Shown here: one piece after another, positions 17,182-24,868 of the stretch | Position numbering within the stretch: position 1 is the first letter of the stretch | How the letters are laid out: the number at the start of each line of letters is the position of its first letter | NCBI GenBank assembly: GCA_024278345.1 | Contig: JAJRTK010000092.1 | Coordinates: 1-27,366, forward strand | Reading direction: 5' to 3' | Source of the DNA: a bacterium | Lineage (GTDB): Bacteria; CSSED10-310; JAJRTK01 | Length of the DNA stretch: 27,366 nt | Notes under the pieces: model-generated | Databases searched by the model: none | The model's input: the letters and a program-made list of their open reading frames with translations, nothing else | What the model was told of the DNA's origin: nothing | Program-made: the position numbers and the translations under genes

Positions 17182-20100
17182 TCAGGGCCAAGGCATCTTG
17201 TAAAGACCTTCCCCATGGGTTCCCACAAGAAGGGTGTTGGAGTCCAAGGCCGCCAACTTCGTGATCCGGAGCCAGTCCAGATCGATGGCGACCTCCTGCC
17301 AAGTCAGTCCCCCGTCGCTGCTTTTGTAAAGGGCTTGGCCCGGGGATGCCGCGACGAGCTTGGCTGGATTGGTGGGATTCGCCACCACACTGATGAAGAA
17401 AGCAGCGCGGGTTCCGCTCAGTCGCCGGCTCCAGGCCGGAGTTCCGCTGTAGCTCAAAGTACGCGTCATCATGCCTTCGGCGGTTGCCAGGATTTGTCGG
17501 CCCAGGCTTGGAAGTGCCAGAGCCCCGTTCAGGTGGAAGGAAAACCCCGCGGGCTCTCCTGGCAGGTCGATTTCAGAAAAGCTTGTCCCATTTCCTGACA
17601 CCCAGCTCGTCGTATCCGCCGTGATGAGGATCTTCGACTCGTCTGACTCGATCTCGATGTCCAGAGCAATACCTTTGCCCTTGGAATTGAACGTGACGGC
17701 TTGCCAACTGGCTCCGGCATCAGTGCTCTTGTAGATTTTTCCCCCGCTGGCGGTGACGAAGAGACGATCTGGATTCTGGCCCACGACCACATCCCACATG
17801 TGGTTGGTTTGAGGGGGATTCATCTTTTGCCAGGTTGCTCCGGTATCATCGCTCACGTAGAAGCCGCGGCTTCGGCTGGCGGCGTAGATTCTCGTGGCAC
17901 TGGCCTGGGCGATGGCCCGAATGTCGATGGCGAAGCTCTCTCCACTGTCGAAGCCCTGGTTCGCAAAGGTGAAACTGCCTCCACCATCAATAGAACGCTG
18001 CACACCGCCTTCGCCACCGACAAAAATCGTGTTGCCCCTGACGGCCAAGGTCCGGATCACGAAGCTGTCAATTCCCTGCGTTGCCGGCGCCAGACTTTGT
18101 CCAGAATCCGTTGAGGCCCAAACACCGATCCCGTTCAACGCAGCCCAGAGGTTCTGGCCGCTCCCATCCACGGCAAGGTCATTGACCACCGCCTTGATCA
18201 TCACAGGAGTGTAGTTGCCCAGAGTCGGGTCGCCATCGGAGCGGTAGAAACCGGTCCTGGAAGTTCCCACGAAGACAGAGCTTCCTGTGATGGCCACCGA
18301 TTCGACGCCATAGAAATCCCGGTTCAGATTGGACAGCCCCCAGCTCGCGCCTCCATTGTATGTCACATAGAGATCCCCGGAATTCGTTCGAACCGTAGTT
18401 GGTGCTTCTTTGTCATTGAGCCCCACGTAGATGGTGGAAGTCGATCCCGGCTCTTTCCGGATCACCTTGACGTAGCCTGCTTCAGGGAGGGCTCCCAGCC
18501 CCATCTCCCTGGCGGTCCAAGTCGCACCGCCGTCCGCGCTGGAAAAGAGTCCCTGGCCGTCGGTGCCGATCCAGATCTCGCTGCCAATGACTTCCACGGT
18601 ATTGAGATGGAGAGAGCCCAACCCCGTGATGCCCGTCGTGGACCAAGTGGAACAGCCATCGGAGCTCACCAGGAGACCACTTCCGCGAGTGGCGGCATAA
18701 CATCGCCCGCCAGCCCCCACGGGATCGACCTCCAGATCTTCGATCCAGGCGTTCTTTTGGAAACTCCAGGTCAGCCCGCTATCGACGGAACGGAAAAGCC
18801 CGGCCACCGTACCAGCCACCACCAGGTCTCCACCGTCACCAGCCATGGCGGTAACGATGGGTTCATCCAACCCCTCACTGGAGCGCTGCCACGAGATCCC
18901 GCCGTCGATGCTCCGGTAAACCCCGCCGCCGTTGGTCCCGGCAAGCAAAACCCCCGAGTCGGTCCGGTAGATGGCAAGCACCGTTCCGCCAGCCAGAGGT
19001 AAAGCAGTGGTCTGGGCCCTGGCCGTAGGGGCCGAAACCGTCAATAAAAATAAGACCAAGAGTCCCATGGACATGGATCTCCGGGCCTTTTCCGCTCCTC
19101 GCAAGAACCATCCGAAAAGAGCTAGAACCAAGACCAGAGCAATCCATCGAAGAGAAGGAACCGTGTACCCTTCCAGCACCTGGAAGAAGACCTGTTGGGT
19201 GTTGGCTCCGTCATCGAAACTGTAAAACAGATAAGTCTCGCTGCCATCGGTGACCGCCGTTGGAAAAGTCGATGCGCCTCCGCCTTTGACGATTTCCTGA
19301 GCTTTCCAGGTTCCGCCACCGTCGTCACTGATGGCTCGGTAGAGATCTCCGCCAGCATCGGATTGGGGCAACACCGTTTCCGGGCGGACCCAGTACACTT
19401 CCACCCGTTCTCCGCGAATCACAATGGCGGGCCGCCCGGGAGTCGTGTCGGTTTCAAGGGTCTGGGCCGGCGTGTGATCCGAAAGAGGAGCCGGCCGCGA
19501 CCAGGTTAATCCGCTGTCGCTACTTCGGGAATAGAAGACGTTCCGGCCTCTGGTGGTCTGGTACCAGGCCGCGTGGAGCACGTTGTCACTCCCAGCCTCC
19601 AATACGGGAAACATGGCGTTTCCATAGTCTTGTGGAAGGGGCCTCGATACAAATACCTCGTCCAAGAAGCTGATACCCCCGTCCAGGCTGAGCTGAACCT
19701 GGATGTCAAAAGGTGGCTGTCCCCCCTGGGGGAGGCCTAGTGGGTCGGAACGGTAGGCGATGGCCACTCGGCCGTTCGGAAGAATCCGGACACAGGGCAT
19801 GGAAAAATCCAACATCCGGCGTGCGTCGTCCACCACCAGCTCCGGCCCCCAAAATCCAGAAGCCCCGCGGTTGCTACTCCTTCGAATGAAGACGTTTGTA
19901 TGGTTCAGGTTGTCCACTTTGCGGCGGTCGAAATAAGCAACGATCACTGTTGCTCCATCCTGGGATGCCGCAAGACTCTTGACCAAAGACTCTTTCCCGT
20001 CATCGGCGGAGAGAAGCTGTGGCGACTCGAAGCTCAGGCCGCCATCGGTACTCCGCGTGAAGTAGACCTCCATGGTCCCACTGGGATCGGCTTGCCAGGC

Positions 20101-20370
20101 GATGTAGACGTTCTGATCCACGGCGGCGATATAGGGCTCCATGTCCAGAGCCAGGTCACCAATCACCTGAGAAGTCCAGTCCTTTCCCAGATCGGTGCTT
20201 CGGTAGTACGTGATGGTGGCCGCTTCCTTGAGAACCAGGTGGAGGACTCCGTTGGAAAAGGCGGCCCTGGGAGTGCGGGCGTGTCCTGGAGTCGCGGTAA
20301 TCGGGGTTTGCGCAAAAGAAATCGTCGCGGCGAAGGTGGCCCAAAGGTAGAGTGTGGGTTTCCATGTCAT
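17182..20370 (-). CDS. Asp-box (BNR/sialidase-like) exported protein, apparently two proteins fused in frame
   Basis: This 1062-residue protein has two unequal halves. Residues 1-20 are a signal peptide ('TISFAQ'). Residues about 25-400 hold Asp-boxes ('RSTDGGLSF', 'SRSSDSGLTW', 'ISDDGGGTW') of the six-bladed sialidase type. 'VPSLRWIALVLVLALFGWFLRGAEKARR' in two parts (404-417 and 418-431) looks like an IPTL-CTERM sorting tail: P-x-L-x-W, a hydrophobic run, then basic residues. Instead of ending, the frame continues into a second signal-peptide-like segment (433-452, 'LLTVSAPTARAQ'). A second propeller of about ten Asp-boxes ('RSIDGGISW', 'SSADGGATW', 'KSSDGGLTW') follows. Catalytic sialidase residues are not evident, so a binding or structural role is likely. 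AGA at 19080-19078 is one base from TGA. I annotate it as one frame, as the sequence shows. Confidence 0.8.
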   Translation of the reverse strand: MTWKPTLYLWATFAATISFAQTPITATPGHARTPRAAFSNGVLHLVLKEAATITYYRSTDLGKDWTSQVIGDLALDMEPYIAAVDQNVYIAWQADPSGTMEVYFTRSTDGGLSFESPQLLSADDGKESLVKSLAASQDGATVIVAYFDRRKVDNLNHTNVFIRRSSNRGASGFWGPELVVDDARRMLDFSMPCVRILPNGRVAIAYRSDPLGLPQGGQPPFDIQVQLSLDGGISFLDEVFVSRPLPQDYGNAMFPVLEAGSDNVLHAAWYQTTRGRNVFYSRSSDSGLTWSRPAPLSDHTPAQTLETDTTPGRPAIVIRGERVEVYWVRPETVLPQSDAGGDLYRAISDDGGGTWKAQEIVKGGGASTFPTAVTDGSETYLFYSFDDGANTQQVFFQVLEGYTVPSLRWIALVLVLALFGWFLRGAEKARRSMSMGLLVLFLLTVSAPTARAQTTALPLAGGTVLAIYRTDSGVLLAGTNGGGVYRSIDGGISWQRSSEGLDEPIVTAMAGDGGDLVVAGTVAGLFRSVDSGLTWSFQKNAWIEDLEVDPVGAGGRCYAATRGSGLLVSSDGCSTWSTTGITGLGSLHLNTVEVIGSEIWIGTDGQGLFSSADGGATWTAREMGLGALPEAGYVKVIRKEPGSTSTIYVGLNDKEAPTTVRTNSGDLYVTYNGGASWGLSNLNRDFYGVESVAITGSSVFVGTSRTGFYRSDGDPTLGNYTPVMIKAVVNDLAVDGSGQNLWAALNGIGVWASTDSGQSLAPATQGIDSFVIRTLAVRGNTIFVGGEGGVQRSIDGGGSFTFANQGFDSGESFAIDIRAIAQASATRIYAASRSRGFYVSDDTGATWQKMNPPQTNHMWDVVVGQNPDRLFVTASGGKIYKSTDAGASWQAVTFNSKGKGIALDIEIESDESKILITADTTSWVSGNGTSFSEIDLPGEPAGFSFHLNGALALPSLGRQILATAEGMMTRTLSYSGTPAWSRRLSGTRAAFFISVVANPTNPAKLVAASPGQALYKSSDGGLTWQEVAIDLDWLRITKLAALDSNTLLVGTHGEGLYKMPWP

Positions 20371-21189: not shown

Positions 21190-21263
21190 GTCATGCTCGC
21201 TTCCGGCAACGATGGGAATCTGATTCGGGGCGCCCGGTTTTTCTCCACGGGCTTCAACTAGGT

Positions 21264-21269
21264 TATACT
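21264..21269 (+). promoter_or_regulatory. -10 box giving a probable leaderless transcript
   Basis: TATACT ends 8 nt before ATG 21278. Transcription from this box would begin about 21276-21277, at or next to the start codon. No Shine-Dalgarno sequence precedes the ATG. The -35 region (TTCTCC at 21241) is poor. Confidence 0.5.
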
Positions 21270-21277
21270 AAGCCTTT

Positions 21278-24200
21278 ATGACCTCTCAACGCCAAGTACT
21301 TCCAACGATTTGGCCCGATCATTTCGCTGATCGTTTCGAGTTGATCGGGACTTTGGGCAGCAGCCTCATCTGTCGTTCCTTCCTTGTTCGCCAGGAGGGC
21401 AGGGGCGAGCGGTTGGTCGCCGAGTGGTATTTCGGGCACCGCACCGGGCTCCCAGAGCGCTGGGACGAGCGGAAGACCCTGAGCCACGAGCGGCTGTTGG
21501 TGCCGTTCTGGATAGGGACCTGCGCCGACGGGAGCTGGCTCGGGGTTCGGCACTGGGCCAGCGAGCTCCTGACGCCTCAGCGAGGGGGCCGGGATCCATC
21601 GGAGTTGGCGCGTTGGCTCGCCCAGGCGGCTCATGCGCTGGCTTATCTCCACAGCCTGAAACGTCTTCACGGTGTGCTCCGGCCCACAAGCCTCTTTTTG
21701 GACGGAGGGGCGAACTTGCTTTTGGCCGTTGGCCCGGAATACCGGGTGGACAAGCTTCCGCCTCCTTCGGCGGCCTCCGCCATGTGGAGCTCGCCGGAGC
21801 GGCTCCAGGGGCAGCCACTCTCCCCTTCCAGCGACCTCTATTCTCTGGGCACGGTTTTTTACCAGCTCGCCACGGGAAAGCCCCCGTTTGGCTCAAGTGG
21901 AGGGGAATTGCTGCGGCAGCAGATCAGCGATTCGATCCGTTCGCCCCTCCTGCTCAATCCCCGGTTGGGCCTTCCCGTCGCTCGAATTTTGGCGAAGTTG
22001 TTGCGCAAGGACCCCGCGGAGCGATTCCACAGGGCGAACGAAGTCATCGAGGCTCTGAACCAGGGTATGAGGACTCATTATCCCACCCACGCGGCTTCGC
22101 CTGTCCGCCGTCGGATCGGGAAGGCGCGATGGCTGGAGCCGGTAGAGGCCACGGGGATGGTGACCCAAGTTCTTGGTGCCTTGTGTAGAGGGGAGAACCA
22201 CCTGGTTCTCGTCGATGCCGAGGCCGGGGCCGGTCGCCATGAGTTTCTCCGGCGGATTCGGGCAAAGTTTCGGGAAGTTTCATGGGCTTGCGGTCTGGCC
22301 GGGCTCTATTCCAGGCCTTTCGCCCCCGTCTTTCAACTGCTGGAGCAGCTTTCTAGCAGACAACCGGATGGAAGATGGGCTTCTTGGAAAGAGAGATTAA
22401 CTTCGGCTTCCGTCGCCACTGGCGCCGCTCGCCGGGAAATGATCGAGGCTGCTCTCGTATCTGTTCACCGCCATGCCCCCTTGGTCTTGCAGATCGATTC
22501 GGCGGAGCTGCTCGATCCGCCGAGCTTAGAGCTTTTATGCCGCCTGCTCGTACGGTCGTCGGCCGGGCTCCTCGTCTTCCTGAGCCAAATCCGGGGAGGC
22601 GACGCGGCGCTGGCGGATAAAGTTCTTGCCCGCCTCGGATCCGTCCCTTTGCACAGGATACGTTTGCCGAGGTTAACTCCAGATCTATCGGCGGAGCTTG
22701 TACGCTCTTCTATCGGACGGGTTTTGCCCTCACTGGAAGCCGCGACCTATCGTTTGGCCGGTGGGAACCCCATGGCGACGCGCCTTGTCTTGGAATTGCT
22801 CGTTGAGACGGGAGAACTTACCGCCGAGGGCGAGGGATGGGAATTCGAGGCGGATGGCCCGGCGTCGGCGCTTTCTTTCGGAGGTCTTGTCCAATCCTTC
22901 CTGAATGCTGGTCCGGAAGGCCAGAAATCTATTCTGCAAGCCCTCGCCTTGTTTGGCCGGCCCGCTACCGCCAGCGAGATTATCCGATTGTCGGGCCTGG
23001 GAGAAGATGGCGCCGATTTGCTTCGACAGCTCGGGGATCTTCGGATCTGTGTGTCGAGAGATGGCCTGTGGCAGTTTGGGGACGAGGAAATTCGGACTCG
23101 CGTCCTGGCGAAACTGGAAGCTCCGCGCCAAATAGAGCTCCACCGCCGAGCGTACAGTCAGCTTCTTGAATCTGGAGCAGCGGACCAGGAGTTGGCTCAT
23201 CACGCCTTGGGATTCGGAGACTACGAACTTGGTGCCCGGCACCTCATGGCGGCTGCGAAGGTGTGGGATGGGCTCTACGAGATCGAGCGTGCTTCCGAGC
23301 TCTACGGCACGGTGCTCCGGGTTTTGGAATCGAGCCCCCTCGTAGGGCGAAAGCTCGAGGCAGCCAGCAAGTTGGGTCATCTTTGTCTGTTGCAGGGGAA
23401 CTTTTCCGCCGCACAGCGTTACATTCGGATGACGCTGGAGCACACGGAGGATGCGCGGGAGCGTCTTGCATGGCTCGAAGAGCTTGGTGATGCACTGCTG
23501 AGGGCCGACGATAACCAGGCCGCCTTGGAGATCTTCGACGAGGCTCTGCCGTTGACCTCGGAGAATCCCAGTGCAAGAGCTCGGATTCTTGCCAACAAGG
23601 GCTGGCTCCTTCTTCTTGTGGGGAAGGAACGGCAGGGAAGCGCTTTGATTTCCGAAGCCTTGGCCATGGTCAGCACCAACGCCTCCCATGAGGTCGTTTC
23701 CATGCGGCATGTTTCCCTGGGTCGCCTTGCTTGGGTCCACGGCGACCTCGAAGAGGCGCTTCACCACTTTTCGAGCGCCGTGGTCATTGCCCGGGAGCAG
23801 GGGATCCTCAAGGACGTGATGACGCAGATGGTCAACCAGGCGATCCTTCACAGGAGCTTGGGTCAGGGGCCACAGGTGGTGGAACTCTGCCATCAAGTTC
23901 TGCGCCTCGCGGAGCAGACCGGTGATCTCTTCGAGGAGGCCCGGGTTCACAATGTCCTGGGAAACCACTACGCCGAGCAGGGGCTTTCCGCCAGAGCGGT
24001 GACCTGTTATCAAAAGGCTCTTGAATCCGCTGAACGGCTTGCCAATGACTCGCTGGCCGCCTCCATCGCCATCAACCTGGCCAACCTCTACAAGGAACAG
24101 GGCCGTTTGGAGAAGAGCCTGACGACGTACGAGGAGGCCTGCAAGCTCGTGGACGAGGTCAAGCATCCTCACCTCATGGCGGAGTTTATGGGGACTTTGT

Positions 24201-24868
24201 GCGAGATCGAGTTTCGCCTCGGCAGGTTCGAGGAAGCCCTGTCGGCAGGTCGCCAAGCTCTCCAGATCTTGCGAAGGATAGGGCAAACCCGCGGTCGCGC
24301 CTGGAACCTCTATCTTCTGGGGCAGGTGGAGTGGGAGAGGTGTCGGCTCCAGGAGGCGAAAGGCTATTATGATCGAGCTCGACAGATTCTCCAGCGTCAT
24401 CCGGCAGCCGACTGGCAACACGCTCTTCTGGAGATCGCCTTTGCCCAGCTCTTCTCGGAAGAAGGACTCGAATCCAGGGCAGGCACGGCTCTTCGGCAGG
24501 CGGCCCGCCGTCTGGACAGCCACCGCCTTTCCGTTCCCGCTGCGCAACTGAACATTGCGAGGGCTCGGATGACAGCCGGCCCCGAAGGGATTGTCGCCGG
24601 GGATAGAGCCGTTTCCATCGTGGAGCGGCTAGGTTACCCCGAGCTCACGGCTATGGCCCACGCCGCGGCGGGTGAACGTTGCCTGGCCGAAGGGAACGAT
24701 TTGGCGGCGTCGCGCCACTTTGACCATGCGGTGCGCGGCCTTGAAGGACTGGCTGAAGCGGTCTCCGATCCCGAGCTCCGGGCAATCTTCCTCTCAACTC
24801 CCCGCCGAAAAGCCCTCTTCGCCCTGGCCAAAGATACACATGCACGGGTCTTGTCGGCACGGGGCTGA
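21278..24868 (+). CDS. Degenerate Ser/Thr kinase-STAND ATPase-TPR protein (pseudokinase hub)
   Basis: This 1196-residue soluble protein has three parts. Residues 18-262 are a protein-kinase fold with the catalytic residues lost: the VAxK lysine position reads 'VAEW' (W50), HRDxKPxN reads 'HGVLRPTS' (131-138), and DFG is absent around 'LLLAVGPEY'. Structural marks survive ('WSSPERLQG', 'SSDLYSLGTVFYQLATGKPPF', and the Arg of 'RKDPAERF'). Residues about 285-600 are a STAND/AAA-like domain: Walker A reads 'AEAGAGRHEF' (R320, H321 for Lys and Ser/Thr) and Walker B 'LVLQIDSAELLDPPSLELL' has a single Asp. Residues about 640-1190 are a long TPR array. The architecture matches PknK-like kinase/ATPase/TPR regulators of deltaproteobacteria, but with neither active site intact. 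It is probably a signalling scaffold. Start ATG 21278 is supported by the -10 box. Confidence 0.88.
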   Translation: MTSQRQVLPTIWPDHFADRFELIGTLGSSLICRSFLVRQEGRGERLVAEWYFGHRTGLPERWDERKTLSHERLLVPFWIGTCADGSWLGVRHWASELLTPQRGGRDPSELARWLAQAAHALAYLHSLKRLHGVLRPTSLFLDGGANLLLAVGPEYRVDKLPPPSAASAMWSSPERLQGQPLSPSSDLYSLGTVFYQLATGKPPFGSSGGELLRQQISDSIRSPLLLNPRLGLPVARILAKLLRKDPAERFHRANEVIEALNQGMRTHYPTHAASPVRRRIGKARWLEPVEATGMVTQVLGALCRGENHLVLVDAEAGAGRHEFLRRIRAKFREVSWACGLAGLYSRPFAPVFQLLEQLSSRQPDGRWASWKERLTSASVATGAARREMIEAALVSVHRHAPLVLQIDSAELLDPPSLELLCRLLVRSSAGLLVFLSQIRGGDAALADKVLARLGSVPLHRIRLPRLTPDLSAELVRSSIGRVLPSLEAATYRLAGGNPMATRLVLELLVETGELTAEGEGWEFEADGPASALSFGGLVQSFLNAGPEGQKSILQALALFGRPATASEIIRLSGLGEDGADLLRQLGDLRICVSRDGLWQFGDEEIRTRVLAKLEAPRQIELHRRAYSQLLESGAADQELAHHALGFGDYELGARHLMAAAKVWDGLYEIERASELYGTVLRVLESSPLVGRKLEAASKLGHLCLLQGNFSAAQRYIRMTLEHTEDARERLAWLEELGDALLRADDNQAALEIFDEALPLTSENPSARARILANKGWLLLLVGKERQGSALISEALAMVSTNASHEVVSMRHVSLGRLAWVHGDLEEALHHFSSAVVIAREQGILKDVMTQMVNQAILHRSLGQGPQVVELCHQVLRLAEQTGDLFEEARVHNVLGNHYAEQGLSARAVTCYQKALESAERLANDSLAASIAINLANLYKEQGRLEKSLTTYEEACKLVDEVKHPHLMAEFMGTLCEIEFRLGRFEEALSAGRQALQILRRIGQTRGRAWNLYLLGQVEWERCRLQEAKGYYDRARQILQRHPAADWQHALLEIAFAQLFSEEGLESRAGTALRQAARRLDSHRLSVPAAQLNIARARMTAGPEGIVAGDRAVSIVERLGYPELTAMAHAAAGERCLAEGNDLAASRHFDHAVRGLEGLAEAVSDPELRAIFLSTPRRKALFALAKDTHARVLSARG

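Follow-up and report, generated by a model that had tools for sequence, protein, structure and literature searches.

A bacterial pseudokinase-STAND-TPR protein without canonical residues at either of its predicted nucleotide sites

The closest described systems to the protein analysed here belong to CP1, a COG3899-linked family of cytosolic kinases in which ~40% of members are pseudokinases and whose functions are unknown (O'Boyle et al. 2025, PMC12599244). CP1 pseudokinases are Hanks-type proteins that have diverged in one to three motifs and are fused to a predicted STAND-type ATPase; GAF/FhlA or PAS domains are frequent, although not universal, among CP1 proteins, and almost no experimental functions have been assigned to bacterial pseudokinases of this type (PMC12599244). 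In STAND proteins (PMC4381067), nucleotide exchange at the nucleotide-binding domain (NBD) drives assembly and activation, the repeat domain senses the inducer and the proteins act as multimers. A further point of comparison is the PknK type, represented by PknK of M. tuberculosis and by a large paralogous family in the host phylum, which resembles our protein in its kinase-STAND-TPR order and its length.

Here we describe P0001, a predicted pseudokinase-STAND-TPR protein of 1,196 amino acids encoded in a window of 27,366 nucleotides (the whole stretch of DNA that was analysed) from a fragmented draft genome (G000; 6.06 Mb, 550 contigs, 88% complete). P0001 resembles CP1 in its predicted cytosolic Hanks-type pseudokinase fold and its STAND-type module, and all three of its kinase motifs are lost. 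In contrast to CP1, it ends in a TPR array: no output domain was recognized, and searches of Pfam and NCBIfam found no GAF/FhlA or PAS domain.

Results

P0001 occupies an open frame at 21278-24868 on the forward strand (stop codon included) with no internal stop. At the stop frequency given by local composition, the probability of 1,196 open codons is ~1.6e-16, and homology continues in frame from the kinase through the end of the TPRs. Pfam detects the C-lobe of Pkinase at residues 101-251 (48 bits), AAA_16 at residues 295-429 (slightly under the cut-off), TPR_12 (112 bits) and TPR_MalT (70 bits). The full AlphaFold model, for which the input was an alignment of homologues gathered in this analysis, has a mean pLDDT of 80.9 and a pTM of 0.72 and arranges the chain as a two-lobed kinase, then a nucleotide-binding fold with winged-helix and arm regions after it, and last a TPR superhelix that runs to the C-terminus. 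The superhelix (residues ~701-1194; 23378..24859, forward strand) is modelled as continuous helical hairpins. With a maximum 19-residue Kyte-Doolittle mean of 1.65, the protein has no transmembrane segment. These features, together with codon usage, underlie its description as a pseudokinase followed by a degenerate STAND module and TPRs.

The gene appears to be monocistronic, lying 88 bp from the divergent orphan gene P0002 (20452-21189, reverse strand; 245 amino acids with a hydrophobic segment) and converging with an epimerase-acyltransferase pair. P0002 has no match in Pfam, NCBIfam, PADLOC or the genomes of the same phylum, and the adjoining epimerase has only distant homologues in the phylum, so that no shared synteny was found for P0001. 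A PknB-like kinase (P0003; 12537-14621, reverse strand), which has intact motifs and probably a membrane segment, lies 6.7 kb from P0001, on the other strand. The genes between them, which encode a sulfatase-like protein, a BNR-repeat protein and the orphan, are unrelated, and nothing links this kinase to P0001. The BNR-repeat protein is of the sortilin type with a beta-propeller (1,062 amino acids; 17182-20370, reverse strand), and it has a signal-like start and a hydrophobic segment near residue 404. An anti-phage role for P0001 of the PD-T4-6 or MAD6 kinase kind was considered and rejected because the PADLOC matches are generic, covering the kinase C-lobe only, and the ordinary kinase nearby (P0003) has far higher scores with these models. 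Immediately upstream of P0001, a TATACT-like -10 element lies ~9 bases 5' of the ATG (21262-21280), at a site absent from the consensus-scan list. With this element so near the start codon and no Shine-Dalgarno sequence evident, the mRNA of P0001 may be leaderless.

The pseudokinase domain (residues 14-264; 21317..22069, forward strand) is modelled with a pLDDT of 84.5 and finds its best PDB matches in PknB. Superposition on M. tuberculosis PknB gives a Z score of 28.3 and an r.m.s.d. of 2.2 A over 248 residues, and the structural neighbours listed for the model are kinase chains only, so that this comparison is silent on the STAND part. Alignment with 24 active relatives locates each of the losses on the forward strand. 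The glycine-rich loop (residues 27-34, GSSLICRS; 21356..21379) is degenerate, with LGSSLI replacing GxGxxG. At the beta3 VAxK position (V47-A48-E49-W50; 21416..21427) the lysine is replaced by Glu49 or Trp50, depending on the alignment, the beta3-alphaC region is shorter and the alphaC glutamate is missing. The catalytic loop HRDxKPxN reads H131-G-V-L-R-P-T-S138 (21668..21691), with V133 in place of the aspartate and the catalytic asparagine also lost, and A150-V151-G152 (21725..21733) stands in place of DFG. P0001 therefore has none of the three residues of an active Hanks-type Ser/Thr kinase (VAIK lysine, HRD aspartate and DFG aspartate). Segments that shape the fold are kept, including S-P-E at residues 172-174 (21791..21799), the alphaF segment SDLYSLG at residues 185-191 (21830..21850) and PPF at residues 202-204. 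Of the sites conserved across the 24 active relatives, 3 of 15 catalytic ones and 26 of 45 structural ones persist in P0001 (Fisher p 0.016), and catalytic residues have therefore been lost faster than fold residues. Its structural retention (58%) nevertheless falls below that of the lowest active relative (71%), which is compatible with relaxed constraint on the kinase domain.

The STAND module (residues ~289-700; 22142..23377, forward strand) comprises a nucleotide-binding fold followed by helical, winged-helix and arm regions. It was delimited from the AAA_16 match, a profile alignment and the structural match to 6mfv; against a profile of CP1-like STAND modules it aligns over 356 columns (E 3.4e-19, probability 99.2). 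The parts of a STAND fold are present, namely the NBD, winged helix, arm, repeat sensor and a GxP motif (GNP, residues 496-498). The residues of a functional STAND NTPase (GxxxxGK[ST] in Walker A, two adjoining acids in Walker B) are not. Walker A reads AEAGAGRH (residues 314-321; 22217..22240), with A314, R320 and H321 departing from GExGxGK[ST], and Walker B reads QIDS (22496..22501), in which D407 is kept and the second acid is S408. Loss of the VAIK lysine and the DFG aspartate, and a change from lysine to arginine in the P-loop, are strong, although not absolute, predictors of non-binding. Since R320, the sensor-1-like R439 and GNP all persist in P0001, its STAND module may still bind nucleotide weakly or bind ADP only.

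These results bear out what the original prediction, made from the letters of the sequence, had read there: a kinase without its ATP-binding lysine, HRD aspartate and DFG that keeps SPE, SD-L-YSLG and PPF; Arg-His for Lys-Ser/Thr in Walker A with a single Walker B aspartate; and an intact frame carrying a long, well-formed TPR array. R439 and the GNP motif had gone unmentioned. The hub role that it envisaged, with the neighbouring active kinase as a candidate partner, is conjecture. Its further claim of a new kind of regulator is not supported, as fusions of CP1 pseudokinases to COG3899 have already been described (PMC12599244).

We then compared P0001 with its relatives. Its best long sequence matches are CP1-like proteins, by which we mean kinase-STAND-TPR proteins whose outputs are of the histidine-kinase, HD or sigma-54 type. 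The STAND module scores 93 bits with an HMM built here from 11 long CP1-like STAND modules versus 37-69 bits with six HMMs of the classical group, each built from an equal-sized sample of kinase-STAND-TPR proteins; classical members mostly show the opposite preference, roughly twofold, the one exception being L218. By sequence, the module thus fits the CP1-like group best, as represented by the profile built here. Apart from one protein, L258, the CP1-like pseudokinases in our set keep the Walker A lysine, which P0001 has lost. In other phyla, CP1-like proteins (from Mesorhizobium, Caballeronia and Paraburkholderia plasmids) have no alignable beta3 lysine and GFG for DFG, and their Walker A is kept. 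The top Foldseek match to the whole P0001 model is 6mfv, a STAND structure whose sensor is built of tetratricopeptide repeats (E 2.9e-13). Because the global TM-score is low (0.25/0.40), the two are comparable in domain order only, and no kinase domain is known in the aligned chain of 6mfv, as we take it from the structure title.

The kinase family of the source genome is very large: the P0001 kinase domain by itself finds 96 matches there. We formed a census of 106 proteins with both kinase and AAA matches from this genome (36 sampled), further genomes of its phylum and a single genome from elsewhere; it was built on fetched genome stretches, and its members were picked by similarity to P0001 and are therefore not a random sample. 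Six kinase proteins without a STAND module (L096, L087, L091, L079, L086 and L088) were left out of the STAND set. Both sites are intact in 96 of the 106 homologues, in contrast to P0001, in which neither is. Single losses occur in each direction: six pseudokinases keep the Walker A lysine (L038, L039, L057, L062, L065 and L080), and three active kinases carry arginine in its place (L040, L047 and L251). P0001 is the sole census protein that lacks all three kinase motifs together with the Walker A lysine in a STAND module that can still be aligned. In one of the six pseudokinases (L080:2496-8426, reverse strand, G000:C218), a STAND-TPR half precedes a pseudokinase-STAND-TPR half, an arrangement that resembles a tandem fusion.

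The other protein of this genome in which both sites are lost is L258 (L258:471-4898, reverse strand, G000:C154), a protein of 1,476 amino acids that consists of a pseudokinase, an eroded STAND NBD, TPRs, a sigma-54 activator and a Fis-type HTH. It has likewise lost all three kinase motifs (HGALCPEFL at the catalytic loop and no DFG) and its P-loop, and the kinase tree places it with P0001 (support 0.87), both being long branches. The two proteins differ in that the NBD of L258 is no longer alignable, with VGQDARFALQ at the P-loop position, and in that its TPR array, kept as in P0001, is fused to a sigma-54 AAA+ domain, itself intact, and a Fis-type HTH; the STAND arm is also kept (E 7.7e-13). 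An apparently intact STAND Walker A in L258 was rejected on inspection, as the match lies in the sigma-54 domain and the true STAND P-loop is gone. TPR-sigma-54 proteins of the phylum form a graded set in which L247 has both sites intact, L251 has an intact kinase with GRS in Walker A, L312 has a kinase and no NBD that could be found, and L317, L318 and L319 begin at the STAND arm, with neither kinase nor NBD. By analogy, L258 suggests how a platform of TPRs could signal when no N-terminal switch is left, through a fused, intact sigma-54 activator.

Discussion

The residue sets of both ATP sites of P0001 are lost and the shapes of the two domains are kept, and P0001 is therefore probably a protein-binding platform. 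The reading we prefer, which we regard as evenly poised between right and wrong, is that P0001 is a CP1-like TPR scaffold or adaptor that works without nucleotide, neither N-terminal site having its canonical residues. Such a protein would operate as a fixed platform with no ATP switch: its TPR superhelix would capture a partner protein, with the pseudokinase and STAND folds serving as fixed docking or assembly surfaces. In the simplest form, it would enter mixed complexes with an active kinase-STAND-TPR paralogue of its own genome, which it would scaffold or restrain. Its output would have to come from another protein, since, unlike L258, it has no recognizable output domain of its own. The group to which P0001 appears to belong is known but unstudied; its sequence is unusual in having a second dead site and lacking an output domain.

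A rival reading takes P0001 for a recent pseudogene, or a misassembly, of an ordinary kinase-STAND-TPR gene that is otherwise active; in its favour are the draft state of the source genome and the want of an orthologue to check it against. We consider it scarcely credible, as many separate sites are affected. A neutral copy of P0001 would have picked up ~11 stops after 0.1 substitutions per site and 47 after 1.0, as opposed to none in the actual gene, and no close active paralogue that could be a recent parent was found in its own genome. Codon usage resembles that of neighbouring genes in all three domains and is far above that of random synonymous versions, and the tip branch of P0001 is ~2 substitutions per site long in both the kinase and the STAND trees. 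Across long stretches, identity to the best sequence matches is 23-30%. No orthologue was found in the 386 genomes searched, among which the host phylum is represented by eight (best match 27% identical, E 6.6e-27). Pattern scans of 84,980 species and of viral contigs likewise recovered no close relatives, a weak negative at moderate identity because exact 8-residue matches were required. P0001 is not a recent pseudogene; the recent decay that the original prediction had itself raised as a challenge is at odds with the native codons, the absence of stops and the long tip branches.

A slower form of loss is a serious alternative. Under reductive evolution, only the TPR array would be functional, and the kinase and STAND domains would be folding-competent remnants heading for loss. 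P0001 may stand at one point along the route traced by the sigma-54 series (L247, L251, L312, L258 and L317/L318/L319), and its structural retention below that of every active relative points the same way. However, remnants free of constraint should have decayed or been lost, while both domains remain at full length, are confidently predicted and are written in native codons with no stops despite great divergence; we therefore treat reductive evolution as possible but doubtful. P0001 might instead be a dominant-negative decoy that poisons an active paralogue by joining its oligomer. Dozens of homologous active kinase-STAND-TPR proteins in the genome, as judged from the 36 sampled, would offer targets, the pseudokinase fold is predicted to be intact and STAND proteins are multimeric (PMC4381067). 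Yet no paralogue is close enough to be its specific target, the best matches being no nearer than given above, and P0001 stands alone, convergent with its downstream genes and with no co-transcribed partner, which makes a decoy unlikely. A further alternative is a non-canonical enzyme that uses ATP otherwise, in the manner of SelO or SidJ. SelO does have H-G-V at the HRD position (PMC12599244), as does P0001, and the fold is intact; but SelO and SidJ keep the VAxK lysine and a DFG-like aspartate, both of which are absent from P0001 along with the alphaC glutamate. Identity as a SelO-like AMPylase was accordingly rejected because the required lysine and aspartate are missing, and we hold non-canonical catalysis in general to be very improbable.

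If P0001 is a nucleotide-free scaffold, its double loss with both folds kept would separate the scaffold role from the switch role in large kinase-STAND proteins, in which loss of the kinase site has already been documented. The host phylum offers a natural series for this purpose, comprising proteins with both sites intact, with each single loss and with the double loss in the presence or absence of an output domain, so that which domains matter is directly testable. A broader conjecture, which we put forward tentatively and would not expect to hold in full, is that the lineage has repeatedly converted CP1-like kinase-STAND-TPR switches into nucleotide-free platforms. P0001 would then be a free-standing example that assembles active paralogues or uses an output in trans, with its two ATP modules persisting as selected binding surfaces.

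Among the single losses, L040 (L040:2354-5419, forward strand) and L047 (a 1,014-amino-acid open reading frame, reverse strand) come from two families of the phylum and are the mirror image of the pseudokinase cases, with full kinase motifs, arginine for the Walker A lysine and no GNP motif.
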